A stretch of 54,824 nt of DNA from Armatimonadota bacterium. Its GTDB lineage: Bacteria; Armatimonadota; Armatimonadia; Armatimonadales; Armatimonadaceae. The notes under the pieces were generated by a model. That model made no database searches and was not told the DNA's origin. It worked only from the letters and a program-made list of their open reading frames with translations. This document shows, piece by piece, positions 5,533-47,992 of this stretch (position 1 is its first letter; every line of letters begins with the position of its first letter). The stretch is taken from contig JAPLCP010000127.1 in NCBI GenBank assembly GCA_026392155.1, positions 1 to 54,824 of the forward strand, read 5' to 3'. The position numbers were made by a program, and so were the translations under genes.

Positions 5533-6144
5533 CTAGCGCTTCCGAATCCCGTGAAGCAGAAAGTCTAGCATCGCATTTGCTTGAGCTTCCAGCCCTTTAC
5601 GACAAGACGGGCTTGCATGACAGGGGTTGAGATAGGGCGGGAAGAAAGGCACCATGGCTAGTAAGAAGTGCGAGGCCGCCTCGGCGGGTGTGCTTGGTAG
5701 CTCGAAATCTCCTTCGGTGAGTACCTGAGTGAGGAGGGAAAGCTGTGCCTCACGCTCGGGCTGACCACACTGCATCAGGCGCGGAGAGAGCAGCTCGTTG
5801 ACAAGCTCGGTGCCATGAACCGTCACTTGCGCCACATCGTGAACCGAGAGAATCGCCGCCAAGAGCATCCGCCTCAGCTTCTCTTCGGGCGAGGCAAGTG
5901 AGGCGGCAATGGCTCGCATCTGATCGGTGACATTGCGCTTGACATCGCGGGCTAGTGTGAGGAGGAGTGCTTCCTTGGTCTCAAAGTGCAGATAGACCGA
6001 TCCCTTGCCAATCCCCGCATCCGCAGCAATCTCGTCGATGGTAGTTTTTTTGAAACCATAGTACAAAAAACGCTTACGGGCGGCCTCTAAGATAGCCCGC
6101 CGCGTCTCGTCTCCACCACTGCAGTTGTTCTCTTTACTTCCCAT
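5533..6144 (-). CDS. TetR/AcrR-family transcriptional repressor
   Basis: A 203-residue regulator. The N-terminal helix-turn-helix (about residues 13-60) is textbook: TRRAILEAARKRFLYYGF, then TIDEIAADAGIGKGSVYLHF. The C-terminal ligand-binding/dimerisation half (70-200) is divergent, with a Cys-Pro-rich patch (NPCHASPSCRKG), so the ligand cannot be guessed. The gene is divergent from the six-gene membrane operon (41 bp between starts). A 23-bp palindrome begins two bases upstream of its ATG, fitting autorepression plus repression of the operon. A second copy sits in front of the downstream sigma gene. Confidence 0.92.
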   Translation of the reverse strand: MGSKENNCSGGDETRRAILEAARKRFLYYGFKKTTIDEIAADAGIGKGSVYLHFETKEALLLTLARDVKRNVTDQMRAIAASLASPEEKLRRMLLAAILSVHDVAQVTVHGTELVNELLSPRLMQCGQPEREAQLSLLTQVLTEGDFELPSTPAEAASHFLLAMVPFFPPYLNPCHASPSCRKGLEAQANAMLDFLLHGIRKR

Positions 6145-6185: not shown

Positions 6186-6746
6186 ATGTCAGTAATGCAA
6201 GTCCCCCCAGAAAGTGAGTGGCTCGTAGAAGAGCGTGTGAGAACATTGACGAAAGTGCCTCTAAGCGGCTATACTCCACCCGATTTGACGAAGGATCTCG
6301 TAGAGAAAAGCAACGCTCGTGAGGACGTAATCCTGGCCTGGCGCATCCACCGACTGCGGGAGGAGCCGCAGAAGATTGGGCTGGTCGCACTGGGCTACGG
6401 GCTGGCGTTCGCGTTCTGGCGGCTTGCCTTTCCCTACCCACTGGGGCTGTTTCTTCCCATCGTGGCTCTCACGGGAGCGATGGCGGAGTATCTTTTCCCG
6501 GTGGACTACAAGCTCACCAAAACCGGTGCGTTCTGCTCCTGTGGCCCGGCGATCAAGCTCGAAATAGCCTGGAGCGATGTGCGGCGGGCGATGGTGGGAA
6601 AAGAGGGCATCTATCTCTCGACCCTAAAGATCCCCTCGCGCCTCGACTCCTTCCGGGGGATTCGCCTGCGCTTCTCCGCAGATAACGAGCAGCAAGTTCG
6701 CCAGTCGGTTAAGGCGCTGCTGCCGCAGGATGAGGTGAAAGCATGA
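6186..6746 (+). CDS. membrane protein with PH-like domain, first gene of membrane operon
   Basis: A 186-residue protein of unknown function. A soluble N-terminus (1-60) precedes two closely spaced membrane helices (about 64-82 and 85-101). The cytoplasmic C-terminal domain has a pattern I associate with bacterial PH-like domains (YKLTKTGAF, EIAWSDVRRAMVG, YLSTLKIPSRLDSFRGI). The PxRLDSFRG segment looks like a conserved core. It is the first gene after the putative TetR operator, with no Shine-Dalgarno before the ATG (a second ATG is three codons in). The next gene overlaps its stop by four bases. The PH-like call is from pattern memory only. Confidence 0.75.
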   Translation: MSVMQVPPESEWLVEERVRTLTKVPLSGYTPPDLTKDLVEKSNAREDVILAWRIHRLREEPQKIGLVALGYGLAFAFWRLAFPYPLGLFLPIVALTGAMAEYLFPVDYKLTKTGAFCSCGPAIKLEIAWSDVRRAMVGKEGIYLSTLKIPSRLDSFRGIRLRFSADNEQQVRQSVKALLPQDEVKA

Positions 6747-7027
6747 GCCTCGCGCACTGGAATGAGCCGCTTCCCGAGGCGGAGCGGGAGGCACTTCTTG
6801 AAAAAATTTCCACGCAAGTGGTCAAGCGCGGGCTGAGTGTTCCCGCCATTATCGCCCTGGAGATGCACCGCCCCATGGCCTTTATGCTCTCCCAGAGCCT
6901 GATCGCACTCACACCACTCTTCGGCCCGCTGGTCGGGCTGAACCGGATGCAGGTATTTGGGCGCTTGCTGGCAGAGCCTGGCGGCGTCGAAGCTCTCATC
7001 CGTCGCATTGAGGATAAAACTATATGA
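6743..7027 (+). CDS. small conserved-looking protein of membrane operon
   Basis: A 94-residue protein I do not recognise. It begins on an ATGA overlap with the preceding gene and ends on another overlap with the next, so it is certainly co-translated with them. The first ~30 residues are charged and amphipathic (PEAEREALLEKISTQVVKRG). A hydrophobic central stretch (about 47-68, MAFMLSQSLIALTPLFGPLVGL) could be a membrane or membrane-surface helix. A short helical tail follows. Its position between a PH-like and a DUF6754-like membrane protein suggests it is a structural or regulatory subunit of the same complex. Confidence 0.75.
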   Translation: MSLAHWNEPLPEAEREALLEKISTQVVKRGLSVPAIIALEMHRPMAFMLSQSLIALTPLFGPLVGLNRMQVFGRLLAEPGGVEALIRRIEDKTI

Positions 7028-7842
7028 ACCACGCAACCTGGCCTGCCCTGATCCTGTTGCTGACGATGTCTATTGTCATCGTCGTGACCGTGGTCTCGGC
7101 CCAGCAAGGAAAACAGTACTTCATCCGGCGCATTCCGGGGCTTTCAGCCATTGACGAAGCCGTGGGACGCGCTGTCGAGATGGGGCGCGGGATCCTTCTC
7201 TCCACTGGTCTCTCCGATGGCATTGACATCATCACGCTCCAAGCGCTAGCCATCTGTGCCAACGTGGCATCGTCGGCGGCGCGCTACGGCACTCGGGTGC
7301 AGATGCCGGTCTACAACTCCGCCATGCTCCCCATCGCGGAAGACACGATCTCCAATGCCTACAACCAAGCGGGGCGTGGGGATGCTTACTCTCCCGATGA
7401 TGTGCGCTACCTGTCCAACCAGCAGTTTGCCTACGCCGCCGGTGTGGCTGGGATGATCCAGCGCGAAAAATTTGCTGCGACGTTTCTTTTTGGGACGTTC
7501 TTTGCCGAGTCGCTGATCATGGCGGAGAACGCCAACATGGTCGGAGCGATCCAGGTGGCGGGAACCCCGAGTACCACGCAAGTTCCGTTCTTTATCGCCG
7601 CCTGTGACTACGTGATTATCGGTGATGAGTACTACGCCGCGACCGCCTATCTCACGCGCCAGCCGACTCTCATGGGCTCGATTGTCGCACAAGACCGGGT
7701 CAAGATCGGGATTCTCGCGATGGTCGTTGTGGGGGCACTCTGCACCACGTTTGTGAACCCGAACCTGTTTAAGAACCTACTCGCCGACCAGAGCGTTCCG
7801 ATTGGCGAGCTGATGCAAGGGCCGAAAGAGGAGGGCAAGTAG
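7024..7842 (+). CDS. DUF6754-like membrane protein
   Basis: A 272-residue protein with an N-terminal membrane helix (about 7-25) and a long soluble middle domain. A second helix lies near the C-terminus (about 228-243), with a Lys/Glu-rich tail. The middle domain contains RAVEMGRGILLSTGLSDG, YGTRVQMPVYN and EMAENANMVGAIQVAG-like stretches with many small residues. From memory this is the DUF6754 family, which has no assigned function; I could not confirm by search. It overlaps the upstream gene by four bases, and the next ATG follows its stop immediately. The topology would place the conserved domain on one side of the membrane, next to partners with many more helices. Confidence 0.8.
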   Translation: MNHATWPALILLLTMSIVIVVTVVSAQQGKQYFIRRIPGLSAIDEAVGRAVEMGRGILLSTGLSDGIDIITLQALAICANVASSAARYGTRVQMPVYNSAMLPIAEDTISNAYNQAGRGDAYSPDDVRYLSNQQFAYAAGVAGMIQREKFAATFLFGTFFAESLIMAENANMVGAIQVAGTPSTTQVPFFIAACDYVIIGDEYYAATAYLTRQPTLMGSIVAQDRVKIGILAMVVVGALCTTFVNPNLFKNLLADQSVPIGELMQGPKEEGK

Positions 7843-8835
7843 ATGGGAATGATCTTTGTAGGGCTGCTGATCGGGATCGTAATCCTCTTTGTGCTCACCC
7901 TGGTGCCCAATCGGCTCCGCAAACCCCTGATTGTCCTCGTTACCTTTCTCTCGGGCTGCTTCTATGCCGTGGAGTTTTTCTACCCCACGCACGCCGTCGT
8001 TGCCAATAAGCAAGACCTGATTAAGAAATACGGCGCACCAACACAGACCGCGCCTGATTTCGCCGCCGAGGCCCAGAAAGCGGGCAAGGCGCTTGACCCC
8101 GAAGCGATCAAAAAACTCCAGGAGCTCTCGCCGGAAGATGCACAGCTTGCGCTCAAAGCGGCTCTGGAGGCGACAACGCCCGACAAGCCCTTCGGCCCCG
8201 AGGCGGCGGAGAAGCTCGTCACCCAAGAGAACTTCCTGACCCCAAAGTTTAAGGATGTCTCGGACTGGGCGCTGGTTCTCCAAGCCTTTGCGATTGGACT
8301 GGGGATCTACTCGCTCATGTCGGTGCACCTGCGCAATATCGCCATGAAGCGTGCAGGCTGGGGTAACTCTGCGACCCTGATTGCAGCGATCTTCCTGATG
8401 GCCTTTGCCCATATCGGGAAAGAGTACAGCAGTAAGGGAGGCTGGCTAGAGACTCTGGACAGTCTGCTCTACAACGGGCTGATGAAGAACCTGGATGCGA
8501 CCATGTTCTCCATTATCGCGTTCTATATTGTCTCGGCAGCCTACCGTGCGTTCCGCGTCCGCTCCATTGAGGCGACGATTCTTCTGGTGGCCGCTGCGCT
8601 GGTGATGCTGGGCAATGTCCCGATTGGCCAGGCCCTCACCAACTGGCTCCCCAATGGCAAGACTGATGTACTAGGCAACCTGCGCCTGGAAAATATCGGG
8701 CAGTGGATTCTGAAGAAAGCCAGCAACCCTGCGACCATGGCCATTGACTTTGGCCTTGCCGTCGGCGCCCTGGCGACATCGCTGCGACTCTGGCTCTCGC
8801 TGGAGCGTGGCTCCTACTTCGAGGAGGAACTGTAA
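7843..8835 (+). CDS. polytopic membrane protein of membrane operon
   Basis: A 330-residue protein of unknown function. Two N-terminal membrane helices (about 2-18 and 26-46) are followed by a ~95-residue charged, Ala/Pro/Lys-rich domain (about 50-140). At least five more helices follow: QAFAIGLGIYSL, ATLIAAIFLMAFAHIG, FSIIAFYIVSAAY, ATILLVAAALVML and FGLAVGALATSLRLWL. The start ATG abuts the preceding stop, and a GGAGGA lies at the very end of the gene as the ribosome site for the next. No transport or enzymatic motif is visible. It has the most membrane segments in the operon and may be the core channel or scaffold. Confidence 0.8.
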   Translation: MGMIFVGLLIGIVILFVLTLVPNRLRKPLIVLVTFLSGCFYAVEFFYPTHAVVANKQDLIKKYGAPTQTAPDFAAEAQKAGKALDPEAIKKLQELSPEDAQLALKAALEATTPDKPFGPEAAEKLVTQENFLTPKFKDVSDWALVLQAFAIGLGIYSLMSVHLRNIAMKRAGWGNSATLIAAIFLMAFAHIGKEYSSKGGWLETLDSLLYNGLMKNLDATMFSIIAFYIVSAAYRAFRVRSIEATILLVAAALVMLGNVPIGQALTNWLPNGKTDVLGNLRLENIGQWILKKASNPATMAIDFGLAVGALATSLRLWLSLERGSYFEEEL

Positions 8836-8837
8836 GC

Positions 8838-9710
8838 ATGAATATCCTCAACAACCTCGACCGGCGGATGCTCTATCTGCTCCTCGCGATTGTGATTGCG
8901 ATCCCGCTGCTCTTTCCCATCGTGACCAAACCGCTCCCCAAGCCCGCAATCACGGGCTTTACCCAGAGCTACTACGACACGATCGAGAAAGTGGCCGCAG
9001 ACCCCGTTGCCAAGAACAAGATCGTGATTGTCTCTTGCAACTTTGCGGCAGGGACGCTGGCGGAGAATCTCTCACAGTGCGAGGCCACGGTGCGGCACCT
9101 GATGATGCGCAAGCTCAAGTTCGCCATCTTTGGCTTTAGTGACCCGCAGGGCCGTGAGCTGGGTCAGCAGGTGGTAGATAAGCTTGCCAAAGAGTACGAC
9201 TACCAGTATGGCCGCGACTATGTCAACTGGGGCTACCGACCCGCCGGGGCTGCCGTTGCGCTTCTTAAGACAGCGGTTAATGATCTCCCCGGCGCGATGG
9301 GCAAAGACATCAAAGGAACGGCGATCAGCCAGGTTGCCTGCATGCAAGGCATCAAGAGTGTCAACGATGTTTCCCTGATCTGTGAGTTCGCTGCCTCAGC
9401 CACTCTTCCTGTCTGGATTCAGTTCTACCAGCGTGCCGGAAAAGCACCGATCCCGACACTCTATGGCCCGACCTCGGTGATGGCGACGGAAGCGGTGAAC
9501 TATGTCGAGTCTGGGCAGCTTCAGGGAATGCTGATTGGTCTCAAGGGAGCAAGCGAGTACGAGCTGCTCCTGCAAAAAGAAGGCTTCGCATCGTCGGCCT
9601 CGGCCTCGCTCTCGCTCTCGCACTTGCTGATCGTGGTGCTGATCGTGCTGGGAAATATTGGAATGTTTGTGGAGCGCAAGCAGCGCGCTGCCGCCGAGGG
9701 AGGACGCTAA
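8838..9710 (+). CDS. bitopic protein with large soluble domain, membrane operon
   Basis: A 290-residue protein anchored at both ends: a helix at about 11-29 and another at about 256-278. Between them is a ~220-residue soluble domain with alternating hydrophobic strands and helices (IVIVSCNFAAG, FAIFGFSDPQG, DVSLICEFAAS, MLIGLKGASEY). That pattern resembles a Rossmann-like or periplasmic-binding fold. The segment YGRDYVNWGYRPAGAAVALL looks like a conserved signature. I do not recognise a named family. A GGAGGAACTG site upstream supports the ATG. Position inside the operon suggests a sensor or substrate-binding partner of the polytopic proteins. Confidence 0.8.
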   Translation: MNILNNLDRRMLYLLLAIVIAIPLLFPIVTKPLPKPAITGFTQSYYDTIEKVAADPVAKNKIVIVSCNFAAGTLAENLSQCEATVRHLMMRKLKFAIFGFSDPQGRELGQQVVDKLAKEYDYQYGRDYVNWGYRPAGAAVALLKTAVNDLPGAMGKDIKGTAISQVACMQGIKSVNDVSLICEFAASATLPVWIQFYQRAGKAPIPTLYGPTSVMATEAVNYVESGQLQGMLIGLKGASEYELLLQKEGFASSASASLSLSHLLIVVLIVLGNIGMFVERKQRAAAEGGR

Positions 9711-9712
9711 CC

Positions 9713-10393
9713 ATGTCTGAGGGAATGCTGAAAACCATTGTCGTGCTCCTCGGGGTGCTGACAACGCTGGGAATCTACTCGGTTCTCTATAAAGAAAATA
9801 AAGTCTTCCGCTTCTTTGAGCACTTGTATCTCGGGCTTGCGGGTGGCTATGCCATCGCGGCAAACTGGAACGATGTGCTCAAGACCAACTGGTGGGAGCC
9901 GATGGTCAACGACGGCAAGTGGTGGCTGATCTTACTACTCCCCGCCGGGTCGCTGTTCTACTTTATCTACTCGAAGAAGAACGGCTGGATGGCACGCCTG
10001 ATCTTCGGTCTGTTTATCGGTCTCGCCGCCGGACAGCAGTTCCAGGGCTTTGCGGGCGACTACTGGCCCAAGATCCAGACGGCTGCGACCAAGACACTCT
10101 GGGTAGATTCGACGAAGATCAACCAAGAGTACCCCATCGCTTCCTACGCCACGGTGCTCAACAACTGGCTCTTCATGGCGATCCTGACGGCGGTGATGGT
10201 CTACTTCTTCTTCTCGTTTGAGCAGAAAAGTACCGGAGCCATCAGTAAAGTCTCCAAGTTCGGGCGCTACGCCATGATGATCGCCTTTGGCGCGATGTTT
10301 GGAAACACGATCATGGCCCGTATGGCGCTTCTCATTGGGCGTATCTACTTCCTGATCCACGCTCCCGAGGCGATGAGCAGTAGCGGGCCGTAG
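9713..10393 (+). CDS. polytopic membrane protein, last gene of membrane operon
   Basis: A 226-residue protein of unknown function with about six membrane helices: residues about 7-25, 38-50, 70-85, 93-110, 147-168 and 185-215. It has a Trp-rich loop (NWNDVLKTNWWEPMVNDGKWW). The ATG is preceded by GAGGGAGGA. The gene is followed at once by a strong bidirectional terminator, so the operon ends here. It shows no recognisable transporter motif. Confidence 0.8.
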   Translation: MSEGMLKTIVVLLGVLTTLGIYSVLYKENKVFRFFEHLYLGLAGGYAIAANWNDVLKTNWWEPMVNDGKWWLILLLPAGSLFYFIYSKKNGWMARLIFGLFIGLAAGQQFQGFAGDYWPKIQTAATKTLWVDSTKINQEYPIASYATVLNNWLFMAILTAVMVYFFFSFEQKSTGAISKVSKFGRYAMMIAFGAMFGNTIMARMALLIGRIYFLIHAPEAMSSSGP

Positions 10394-10407
10394 CCTCCTC
10401 ACCAGGG

Positions 10408-10447
10408 AAAAGAAAGAGCGCCTCTGACCAGAGGCGCTCTTTCTTTT
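10408..10447 (+). terminator. strong bidirectional terminator after membrane operon
   Basis: A perfect 19-bp inverted repeat (AAAAGAAAGAGCGCCTCTG and its complement) around a two-base centre, with A-rich and T-rich ends, so it can act on both strands. Only 17 bp separate it from the next gene start. Confidence 0.9.
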
Positions 10448-10451
10448 CGGG

Positions 10452-42250: not shown

Positions 42251-43773
<1,523 letters not shown>

Positions 43774-43872
43774 ATGAGTTGGCCAGACTCCGGTCTGTTG
43801 CCGACGAGGTCGATTCTTGAAGCCACCTCATTAAGTTGGGGAGTCGAGAAGTTATTTACTTTCGCTTTGGCT

Positions 43873-43886
43873 GTTGCTCAAAGAGC
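43873..43886 (+). other. downstream strand of 16S processing stem
   Basis: GTTGCTCAAAGAGC, complementary to the leader at 42076-42089 at 13 of 14 positions plus one G-U. Confidence 0.6.
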
Positions 43887-44006
43887 ATCGCGCTATCCTG
43901 GTGACGTTCTGTTACCTAAATGGATAGGCAAAGCTTTCTTAACACTATACAAATACACTGTCGGGTTGGATTCCCTCTCTACTGGAGAGGGTTTCTAATG
44001 TGGTCT

Positions 44007-44080
44007 GGGCTTGTAGCTCAGCTGGTTAGAGCATTCGGCTGATAACCGAAAGGTCACTGGTTCGAGTCCAGTCAGGCCCA
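44007..44080 (+). tRNA. tRNA-Ile (GAU)
   Basis: 74 bases: acceptor GGGCTTG paired with CAGGCCC, anticodon GAT at 44041-44043, T-arm CTGGTTCGAGTCCAG, discriminator A. CCA is not encoded. Typical 16S-23S spacer tRNA. Confidence 0.96.
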
Positions 44081-44099
44081 TCTTTTGTTTCCTAACATT

Positions 44100-44172
44100 G
44101 GGGGATTAGCTCAGCTGGGAGAGCGACTGATTTGCATTCAGTAGGTCAGCGGTTCGAGCCCGCTATCCTCCA
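44100..44172 (+). tRNA. tRNA-Ala (UGC)
   Basis: 73 bases: acceptor GGGGGAT paired with ATCCTCC, containing the G3-U70 pair that marks alanine tRNA. Anticodon TGC is at 44133-44135. CCA is not encoded. Confidence 0.96.
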
Positions 44173-44622
44173 CTTAGGGAAGCCTCGGCAGGTGTAAACA
44201 ATTTCCACTAGTCTGGTTTAAACGCTTGCGTTTACTCTAGCCTAATGGTTAAGCGAGAGCGAATCCCTTGCGGTTCGTCTCCAGCGGTCGCTGGAAGAGT
44301 AGTTCTAAACTTCCTCGTTTTGTACATTTATAATCGAATAGTGAAACTTCTGGGTAATGCACCATAGAGTTCTGCGGTTCAGAAGGCCGCGCAGGATAGA
44401 ACTTTATGGCGCTTGGTGGTTAGTCCAAGGGGAAGACCAAGTGATAAAAGCAAAATTACTAACAAATACATTCGTCTTAATAGATGGATGTGAGAGAGTT
44501 AGAAGAGTTTCTACATACCCACGATTTGTAGGAAACGGTTGCTGGAGTTTACTCTAGTCTCCGGTTTCTACATGACTGAGTAGTAGGAAGTTCTTAAGCA
44601 AGGTGAAATATCCTTGCTGTTT
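44173..44622 (+). other. structured spacer between tRNA-Ala and 23S
   Basis: 450 bp, poorer in G+C than the flanks, with no credible gene. A large hairpin (GCACCATAGAGTTCT near 44355 with AGAACTTTATGGCGC near 44400), a second hairpin (CTTGGT/ACCAAG), and several segments complementary to the spacer after 23S are visible. Among these is the exact 16-base complement 44332-44347 with 47785-47800. The sequence at 44582-44594 pairs with 47509-47522 as the 23S processing stem. A 66-codon frame (44357-44557) overlaps the hairpins and is probably fortuitous. Confidence 0.6.
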
Positions 44623-47483
<2,861 letters not shown>

Positions 47484-47874
47484 AAGAATCCTTCCCTTTG
47501 TGGAAGGGAGAACTTCCTTACTACCAGGTCAAAGCTAGTTAAGCTAGTAACCCTAGTAGTAGTTGCAAGTGTCGTATAGTGTGTATGAACTTATGGTTTT
47601 GAAGCTACGCGCTGCTTGCTCTGGATCTTCTAACTTGTATGTTCTCTAGCTCTTTGTAGTTAGTGAACTCCATTCTCTAAGTGATTGTGTTTGTAGAAAC
47701 CTATGGGTTTTGTAGAAACCTTTCGCGATCTACGCTACGTTTGTAATAAGATACTTTAGCTAGTCTAGCTGAGTGTCCCTAGTTGTTTCACTATTCGATT
47801 TTAAAAAATGTCTCTACGGCTTTACGTTTTCGTGACGCTGTGGAGTTCTGGTTTCCCCATTTTGGGGATCTAGT
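47484..47874 (+). other. spacer between 23S and 5S
   Basis: 391 bp with no gene. It holds the distal strand of the 23S processing stem (47509-47522), a small hairpin (CCTTCC/GGAAGG, 47490-47508), two GTAGAAACCT direct repeats about 20 bases apart (near 47692 and 47714), and the 16-base segment 47785-47800 complementary to 44332-44347. It is unusually long for a 23S-5S spacer. Confidence 0.6.
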
Positions 47875-47992
47875 TTCTGGTGTTTCTAGCGTAGGGGATC
47901 CACCCGTTCCCATTCCGAACACGGTAGTTAAGCCCTATTGCGGCGAAGATACTTGGGGCAAAAGCCCTTGGGAAAATAGCGCGACGCCAGAA
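47875..47992 (+). rRNA. rrf: 5S ribosomal RNA
   Basis: About 118 bases. 5' TTCTGG pairs with 3' CCAGAA, and the core CCCATTCCGAACACGG with AGTTAAGCCC is the conserved 5S loop region. Confidence 0.95.

Follow-up and report, generated by a model that had tools for sequence, protein, structure and literature searches.

What apparatus is encoded by the six overlapping or abutting membrane protein genes at positions 6186-10393 of contig JAPLCP010000127.1, and do these genes make up the whole of it? Positions 1 to 54,824 of this contig, which comes from an Armatimonadota bacterium (GenBank assembly GCA_026392155.1), are referred to here as the window. In an initial annotation made from its letters, the six genes (A to F) had been proposed to encode an undescribed multi-subunit envelope system. 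The proposal that the system is undescribed stood, but the set of six proved to be incomplete, as two further genes for cytosolic proteins, M and G, belong to it as well; a physical complex of the products is something that we infer. As set out below, the eight genes very probably form a single evolutionary unit, for which a function as an ATP-linked membrane machine is tentatively proposed.

The operon and its conservation

The six open reading frames (ORFs) are co-directional. An ATGA overlap joins A to B and another joins B to C, C abuts D, and gaps of 2 bp separate D from E and E from F. The features are as follows, with topologies and folds as predicted (TM, transmembrane).

6186..6746, + strand: gene A, 186 aa; N-terminus and C-terminal domain (PH-like at best) in the cytosol, with a TM hairpin (64-82, 86-104) between them
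6743..7027, + strand: gene B, 94 aa; a single weak hydrophobic segment; motif PAIxFLExxKPL in the family alignment
7024..7842, + strand: gene C, 272 aa; DUF6754; TM helix, cytosolic Rossmann-like domain, TM helix
7843..8835, + strand: gene D, 330 aa; about 7 TM helices; conserved H162, R235, E243 and R315
8838..9710, + strand: gene E, 290 aa; TM helix, extracytoplasmic Rossmann-like domain, TM helix; invariant E76 and Q227, near-invariant T212 and E242
9713..10393, + strand: gene F, 226 aa; about 6 TM helices; conserved E36-H37, Y164 and R203
10407..10448, + strand: intrinsic-terminator-like hairpin directly 3' of F; 19-bp perfect stem, 4-nt loop, U-rich 3' arm

When the hairpin stretch was folded against shuffled sequences it gave -36 kcal/mol (z -5.7), with no shuffle equally stable; a simple terminator pattern scan did not pick it up. 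Family-averaged hydropathy gave two TM segments for A, one weak segment for B, two for C, seven for D, two for E and six for F. The ORFs, overlaps, membrane character and terminator described in the initial annotation all checked out, confirming that the six-gene operon is real. Within it, C alone passes a Pfam or NCBIfam cut-off, and none of A, B, D, E and F does so. The DUF6754-like protein that had been noticed by eye is a full-length member of that family (PF20539; E 6.5e-92, 307.7 bits against a gathering cut-off of 27), which itself has no assigned function; the present analysis is what ties it to D, E, F, M and G. No member of the operon matched a characterised transporter or secretion complex in the Pfam, NCBIfam and fold searches.

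A scan of GTDB genomes returned 352 DUF6754 loci, and the best 80 of these 352 were read together with the window locus. The order A-B-C-D-E-F was kept on a single strand with short gaps in 61 of the resulting 81 loci, and a further 12 held C-D-E-F only (eight from Poribacteria and four at contig edges). DUF6754 was present in 129/151 Armatimonadota genomes (88/100 genera) and in all 59 of the Poribacteria genomes sampled, and the unit is near-universal in these two phyla and single-copy as a rule. As the gene order was kept while the flanking genes, which resemble housekeeping genes, varied between groups, the six genes travel as a unit, and their co-conservation is strong.

Some genomes carry a second operon of the C-D-E-F type that lacks A and B (L101, L103, L105 and L106), and in which the D copies have an N-terminal soluble extension. 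The C and E copies of these second operons, which belong to two different families, fell into one clade each (support 0.97 and 0.99), which argues that CDE(F) moves as a module; the corresponding grouping was not resolved in the trees of D and F. Tandem copies inside the operon were found for C (L098:4885-6470 and L099:4006-5771) and for E (L092:5331-7151), suggesting heteromeric assemblies. The picture fits a membrane core made of CDE(F), with A, B, M and G as a shared cytosolic side. At one locus (L097:2259-3671) about 1.4 kb with an extra gene separates D from E, an unusual break in the core.

The partners M and G

The operons of several Armatimonadota families include two further genes, for M (~600 aa) and G (~375 aa). 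These follow F at L117, L118 and L121, giving the layout A-B-C-D-E-F-M-G (M and G at, for example, L117:7266-10144), and precede C at L089 (L089:1174-4098) and L097, where the layout is A-B-M-G-C-D-E-F. The latter arrangement of M and G before C was also found at L090 and L096, where the contig or locus ends without A in view, and two loci from the Poribacteria search (L108 and L129) have a separate A-B-M-G cluster. In the window genome both genes lie outside the window, M at contig C65:5233-6642 and G at C207:15288-16415. There G is near fpg-like and S1-like genes (L144:1525-8425), and the eight-gene operon is likewise near such genes at L117 (9032-12251) and L121, so that the position of G in the window genome looks like a relic of an ancestral joined locus.

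Co-occurrence pointed in the same direction. C, M and G were all present in 126 of the 151 genomes and all absent from 14; the other 11 comprised eight genomes with M and G without C, and three single oddities. Thirteen of the 14 genomes without C, M and G were also without E and F, the exception being G147 (completeness 79%), in which both E and F were found. The 13 co-absent genomes span six families, and seven have a completeness of 93% or more (G004, G007, G019, G057, G104, G114 and G126). Because other genera of families f9, f11 and f1 retain all parts, the joint loss probably happened several times. A Fisher test over the 151 genomes gave 1.7e-12 for C/M and 1.4e-18 for M/G, values that, as the test takes no account of the tree, exaggerate how surprising the association is. 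Among the Poribacteria, M scored above the cut-off in 28/30 genomes and G in 28/30. The composition of the unit, A to F with M and G, is thus very probably as given above.

By its sequence, M is predicted to be a GlmL/MutL-like ASKHA (actin-like) ATPase. The L089 copy matched PF13941 (MutL/GlmL) with an E value of 4e-126, the copy of the window genome scored 404 bits against a gathering cut-off of 27, and the phosphate-1 and phosphate-2 motifs of the ASKHA core, DCGSTTTK and DIGGATTD, were invariant in 26 sequences. M shares this core and both motifs with GlmL/MutL, but differs in being only 27% identical over most of GlmL, in having about 115 extra C-terminal residues, in lacking a mutase partner and in its coupling to a putative membrane complex. 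Against the curated GlmL models it scored 222 (NF040745, cut-off 475) and 171 (TIGR01319, cut-off 204), whereas a control, the GlmL of Peptoclostridium, scored 633 and 453. The known role of GlmL and related proteins is to assist B12-dependent mutases as accessory factors, and their genes lie beside those of the mutases, as in Peptoclostridium; known glmL genes are located between glmS and glmE. Glutamate mutase E (PF06368) was absent from 150/151 genomes, including that of the window, and methylmalonyl-CoA mutase from 145/151. G063, the sole genome in which glutamate mutase gave a hit, and a weak one, also has a second, shorter and far better-scoring MutL protein, which serves as an internal control. 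Since M falls below all GlmL cut-offs and the mutases are nearly always absent, it is a separate branch, most likely with a different partner.

G gave a weak match of the biotinyl/lipoyl type (barrel-sandwich). Its N-terminal region showed weak, sub-threshold similarity to RnfC and NqrA (E 0.017-0.03), the long C-terminal part was unmatched, and the C-terminal end looked KOW-like by eye and hit ribosomal L24 below the threshold. G differs from RnfC/NqrA in that it has no Fe-S motif and no Rnf/Nqr partner; a conserved Cys motif was found in neither C, which has one invariant Cys, nor G, which has none. With mean column identities of 65% and 61%, respectively, the cytosolic M and G are the slowest-evolving parts of the unit. 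Among A to F and those M and G proteins that were scanned, none had an ABC ATPase domain.

Predicted domains on both sides of the membrane

AlphaFold 2 (AF2) models of C and E each placed a Rossmann-like domain between two TM helices, with predicted local distance difference test (pLDDT) values of 90.4 for C and 95.1 for E, the latter bearing out the large Rossmann-like soluble domain that the initial annotation had assigned to the bitopic protein E. The domain of C was placed in the cytosol because of the distribution of positive charges and because a distant homologue has a fibronectin type III (FnIII) domain ahead of the first TM helix (fn3 hit, L089:4098-5369); a signal or TM segment and an FnIII-like domain before DUF6754 characterise C of Poribacteria and deep Armatimonadota (the L089 hit and, by eye, L051:7608-8753). 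For E, a positive-inside topology puts the domain on the extracytoplasmic side.

In C, 19 residues were invariant in 100 homologues, including R49, E52, E168, Q177, Q186, C194-D195-Y196, E202, D224 and K227. In E, the residues after the strand ends were more conserved than those before them, marking the C-terminal strand edge (permutation p 0.007), and it is after the strand ends that Rossmann-like folds bind their ligands. A recent duplication as the origin of C and E was considered and rejected, as comparing their profiles gave a probability of 5.7%; the two may still share a fold. Fold searches with both gave a broad tie of generic Rossmann matches, including RCK gating domains, transhydrogenase dIII and CODH subunits. 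RCK chains appeared among the matches of C at Z ~9-10, tied with many unrelated Rossmann folds, and TrkA appeared for E at Z ~8. Foldseek returned one hit below 1e-3 for C (TM-score 0.32) and none for E, and no specific solved relative of either was among the structure matches listed. A search of PDB sequences with C, E, M and G gave nothing credible.

The remaining membrane proteins gave fewer leads. The PH-like character ascribed to A from the window sequence is weakly supported, in that bPH_6 matched 8/72 family members (best E 8.8e-4) and not the window copy; A may nonetheless carry a cytosolic PH-like domain. D and F are polytopic, each with conserved polar residues that include a His, and no consistent Pfam family emerged over 71 members of D or 74 of F. 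The candidates YtaF for D, and Nramp, CrgA and Zip for F, were rejected as weak hits scattered over few members, and no match to a TrkH/KtrB-type membrane subunit was among the Pfam matches listed for these proteins.

A possible ATP-linked machine and its alternatives

We read the operon, with a probability of about 0.4, as encoding the membrane components of a machine with eight parts, an inner-membrane transporter or transducer powered or gated by ATP. In the arrangement predicted from sequences and models, D (7 TM) and F (6 TM) would form the membrane core, with the Rossmann-like domain of C in the cytosol and that of E outside, each held by two TM helices. E would bind a small ligand at its conserved strand edge, the D-F core would pass the ligand or a conformational change through the membrane, C would act as the docking platform for the assembly of G and M, and the ASKHA cycle of M would drive or reset the complex. 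M more probably than not acts on the membrane complex. The odds are about even between transport of some substrate and a role limited to sensing or scaffolding. It is rather doubtful that the unit represents a new class of machine, in which an ASKHA ATPase, via a barrel-sandwich adapter, drives transport or signalling through Rossmann-like domains inside and outside the membrane.

Several observations weigh against this reading. M and G occur without detected C, E and F in G023, G050, G055, G060 and G100, which are mostly fragmented assemblies, and the co-occurrence partly reflects vertical descent, although the co-absences are nonetheless spread over six families. Because M and G are each encoded on their own in the window genome, no co-regulation is visible there. 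D and F (71 and 74 proteins) match no transporter family, and the conserved residues of C show no bias to the expected ligand edge (p 0.92). Every functional step, from physical interaction and ligand to transport and ATPase activity, is also one that we infer.

The same parts could be assembled differently. They might make up a static or assembly platform in the envelope, like PilM-N-O-P, with the actin-like M arranging the membrane proteins and no transport taking place. In PilM-N-O-P of type IV pili and GspL of type II secretion an actin-like cytosolic protein is docked on bitopic inner-membrane proteins, and the combination of an ASKHA protein with bitopic and polytopic membrane proteins and an extracytoplasmic domain, near-universal and single-copy, resembles this. 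Yet M matches no PilM, GspL, FtsA or MreB family, no part of the eight-gene unit has a sequence match to those platforms, and no pilin, secretin or assembly ATPase was noticed beside the loci; the extracytoplasmic domain of E is Rossmann-like rather than ferredoxin-like as in those platforms, and it has a conserved pocket-like edge. We consider a platform unlikely. We hold the same opinion of a signal-transduction complex in which E senses and C relays to M and G without transport. Domains of alike fold on the two sides of the membrane and the ligand-edge conservation in E would suit such a complex, but no output domain (kinase, cyclase or DNA-binding) was recognised in the unit, and D and F together are predicted to have 13 TM helices, more than a sensor needs.

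Less probable still is that M reactivates a B12-dependent enzyme, the role proposed for GlmL, with C to F importing or handling the corrinoid cofactor. The relationship of M to GlmL, and the position of known glmL genes beside their mutases, would speak for it; however, M is nearly universal in genomes from which the two B12 enzymes tested are nearly always absent, it has the C-terminal extension and the sub-threshold scores described above, and no B12 gene was recognised beside it in the loci read. A redox-coupled ion pump similar to Rnf/Nqr, in which G would be the RnfC/NqrA-like soluble subunit, seems the most remote of the alternatives. It could draw on the weak similarity of G, the two Rossmann-like domains and the conserved His in D and F, but C and G have no conserved Fe-S cysteine motif, Pfam and NCBIfam scans of A to F found no Rnf/Nqr subunit, and an ASKHA ATPase has no role in Rnf.

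The transporter or transducer that we favour also bears a likeness to the RCK-gated K+ channels (MthK, KtrAB and TrkHA), in which a membrane core is joined to a cytosolic Rossmann-like domain, as in C. The Rossmann match is generic, however, and here D and F match no TrkH/KtrB family, such domains are predicted on both sides of the membrane, and the partner is an ATPase. As far as our searches reach, the eight-gene system matches no known kind and only single domains of it are recognised. Neither DUF6754 nor G was found on 72,556 plasmids, where M appeared only as distant GlmL, and no C or G was found in viral contigs. DUF6754, PF20539, TIGR01319 and PF13941 went unmentioned in the literature searched, a search that most subscription journals and preprints lay outside.

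Around the operon, a divergent TetR gene (5533-6144, - strand) lies 41 bp upstream of A. It was rejected as a regulator of the operon and as part of the unit, as none of the loci read has a TetR homologue close to the operon. The downstream GHL10 protein was likewise rejected as an operon member, as it is not conserved beside the operon in the loci of relatives. Elsewhere, the window holds a complete 16S-tRNA-tRNA-23S-5S rRNA operon (42251-47992).

Across two phyla, nearly all genomes sampled devote eight genes to this apparatus, yet C is the sole member of the six in the window with a curated family, and that family is a domain of unknown function. The unit is compact, and some of the relatives that carry it belong to genera with cultivated members (Chthonomonas and Fimbriimonas). 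If M does power a membrane complex, the GlmL/MutL branch of the ASKHA ATPases would be used outside the maintenance of B12 enzymes.

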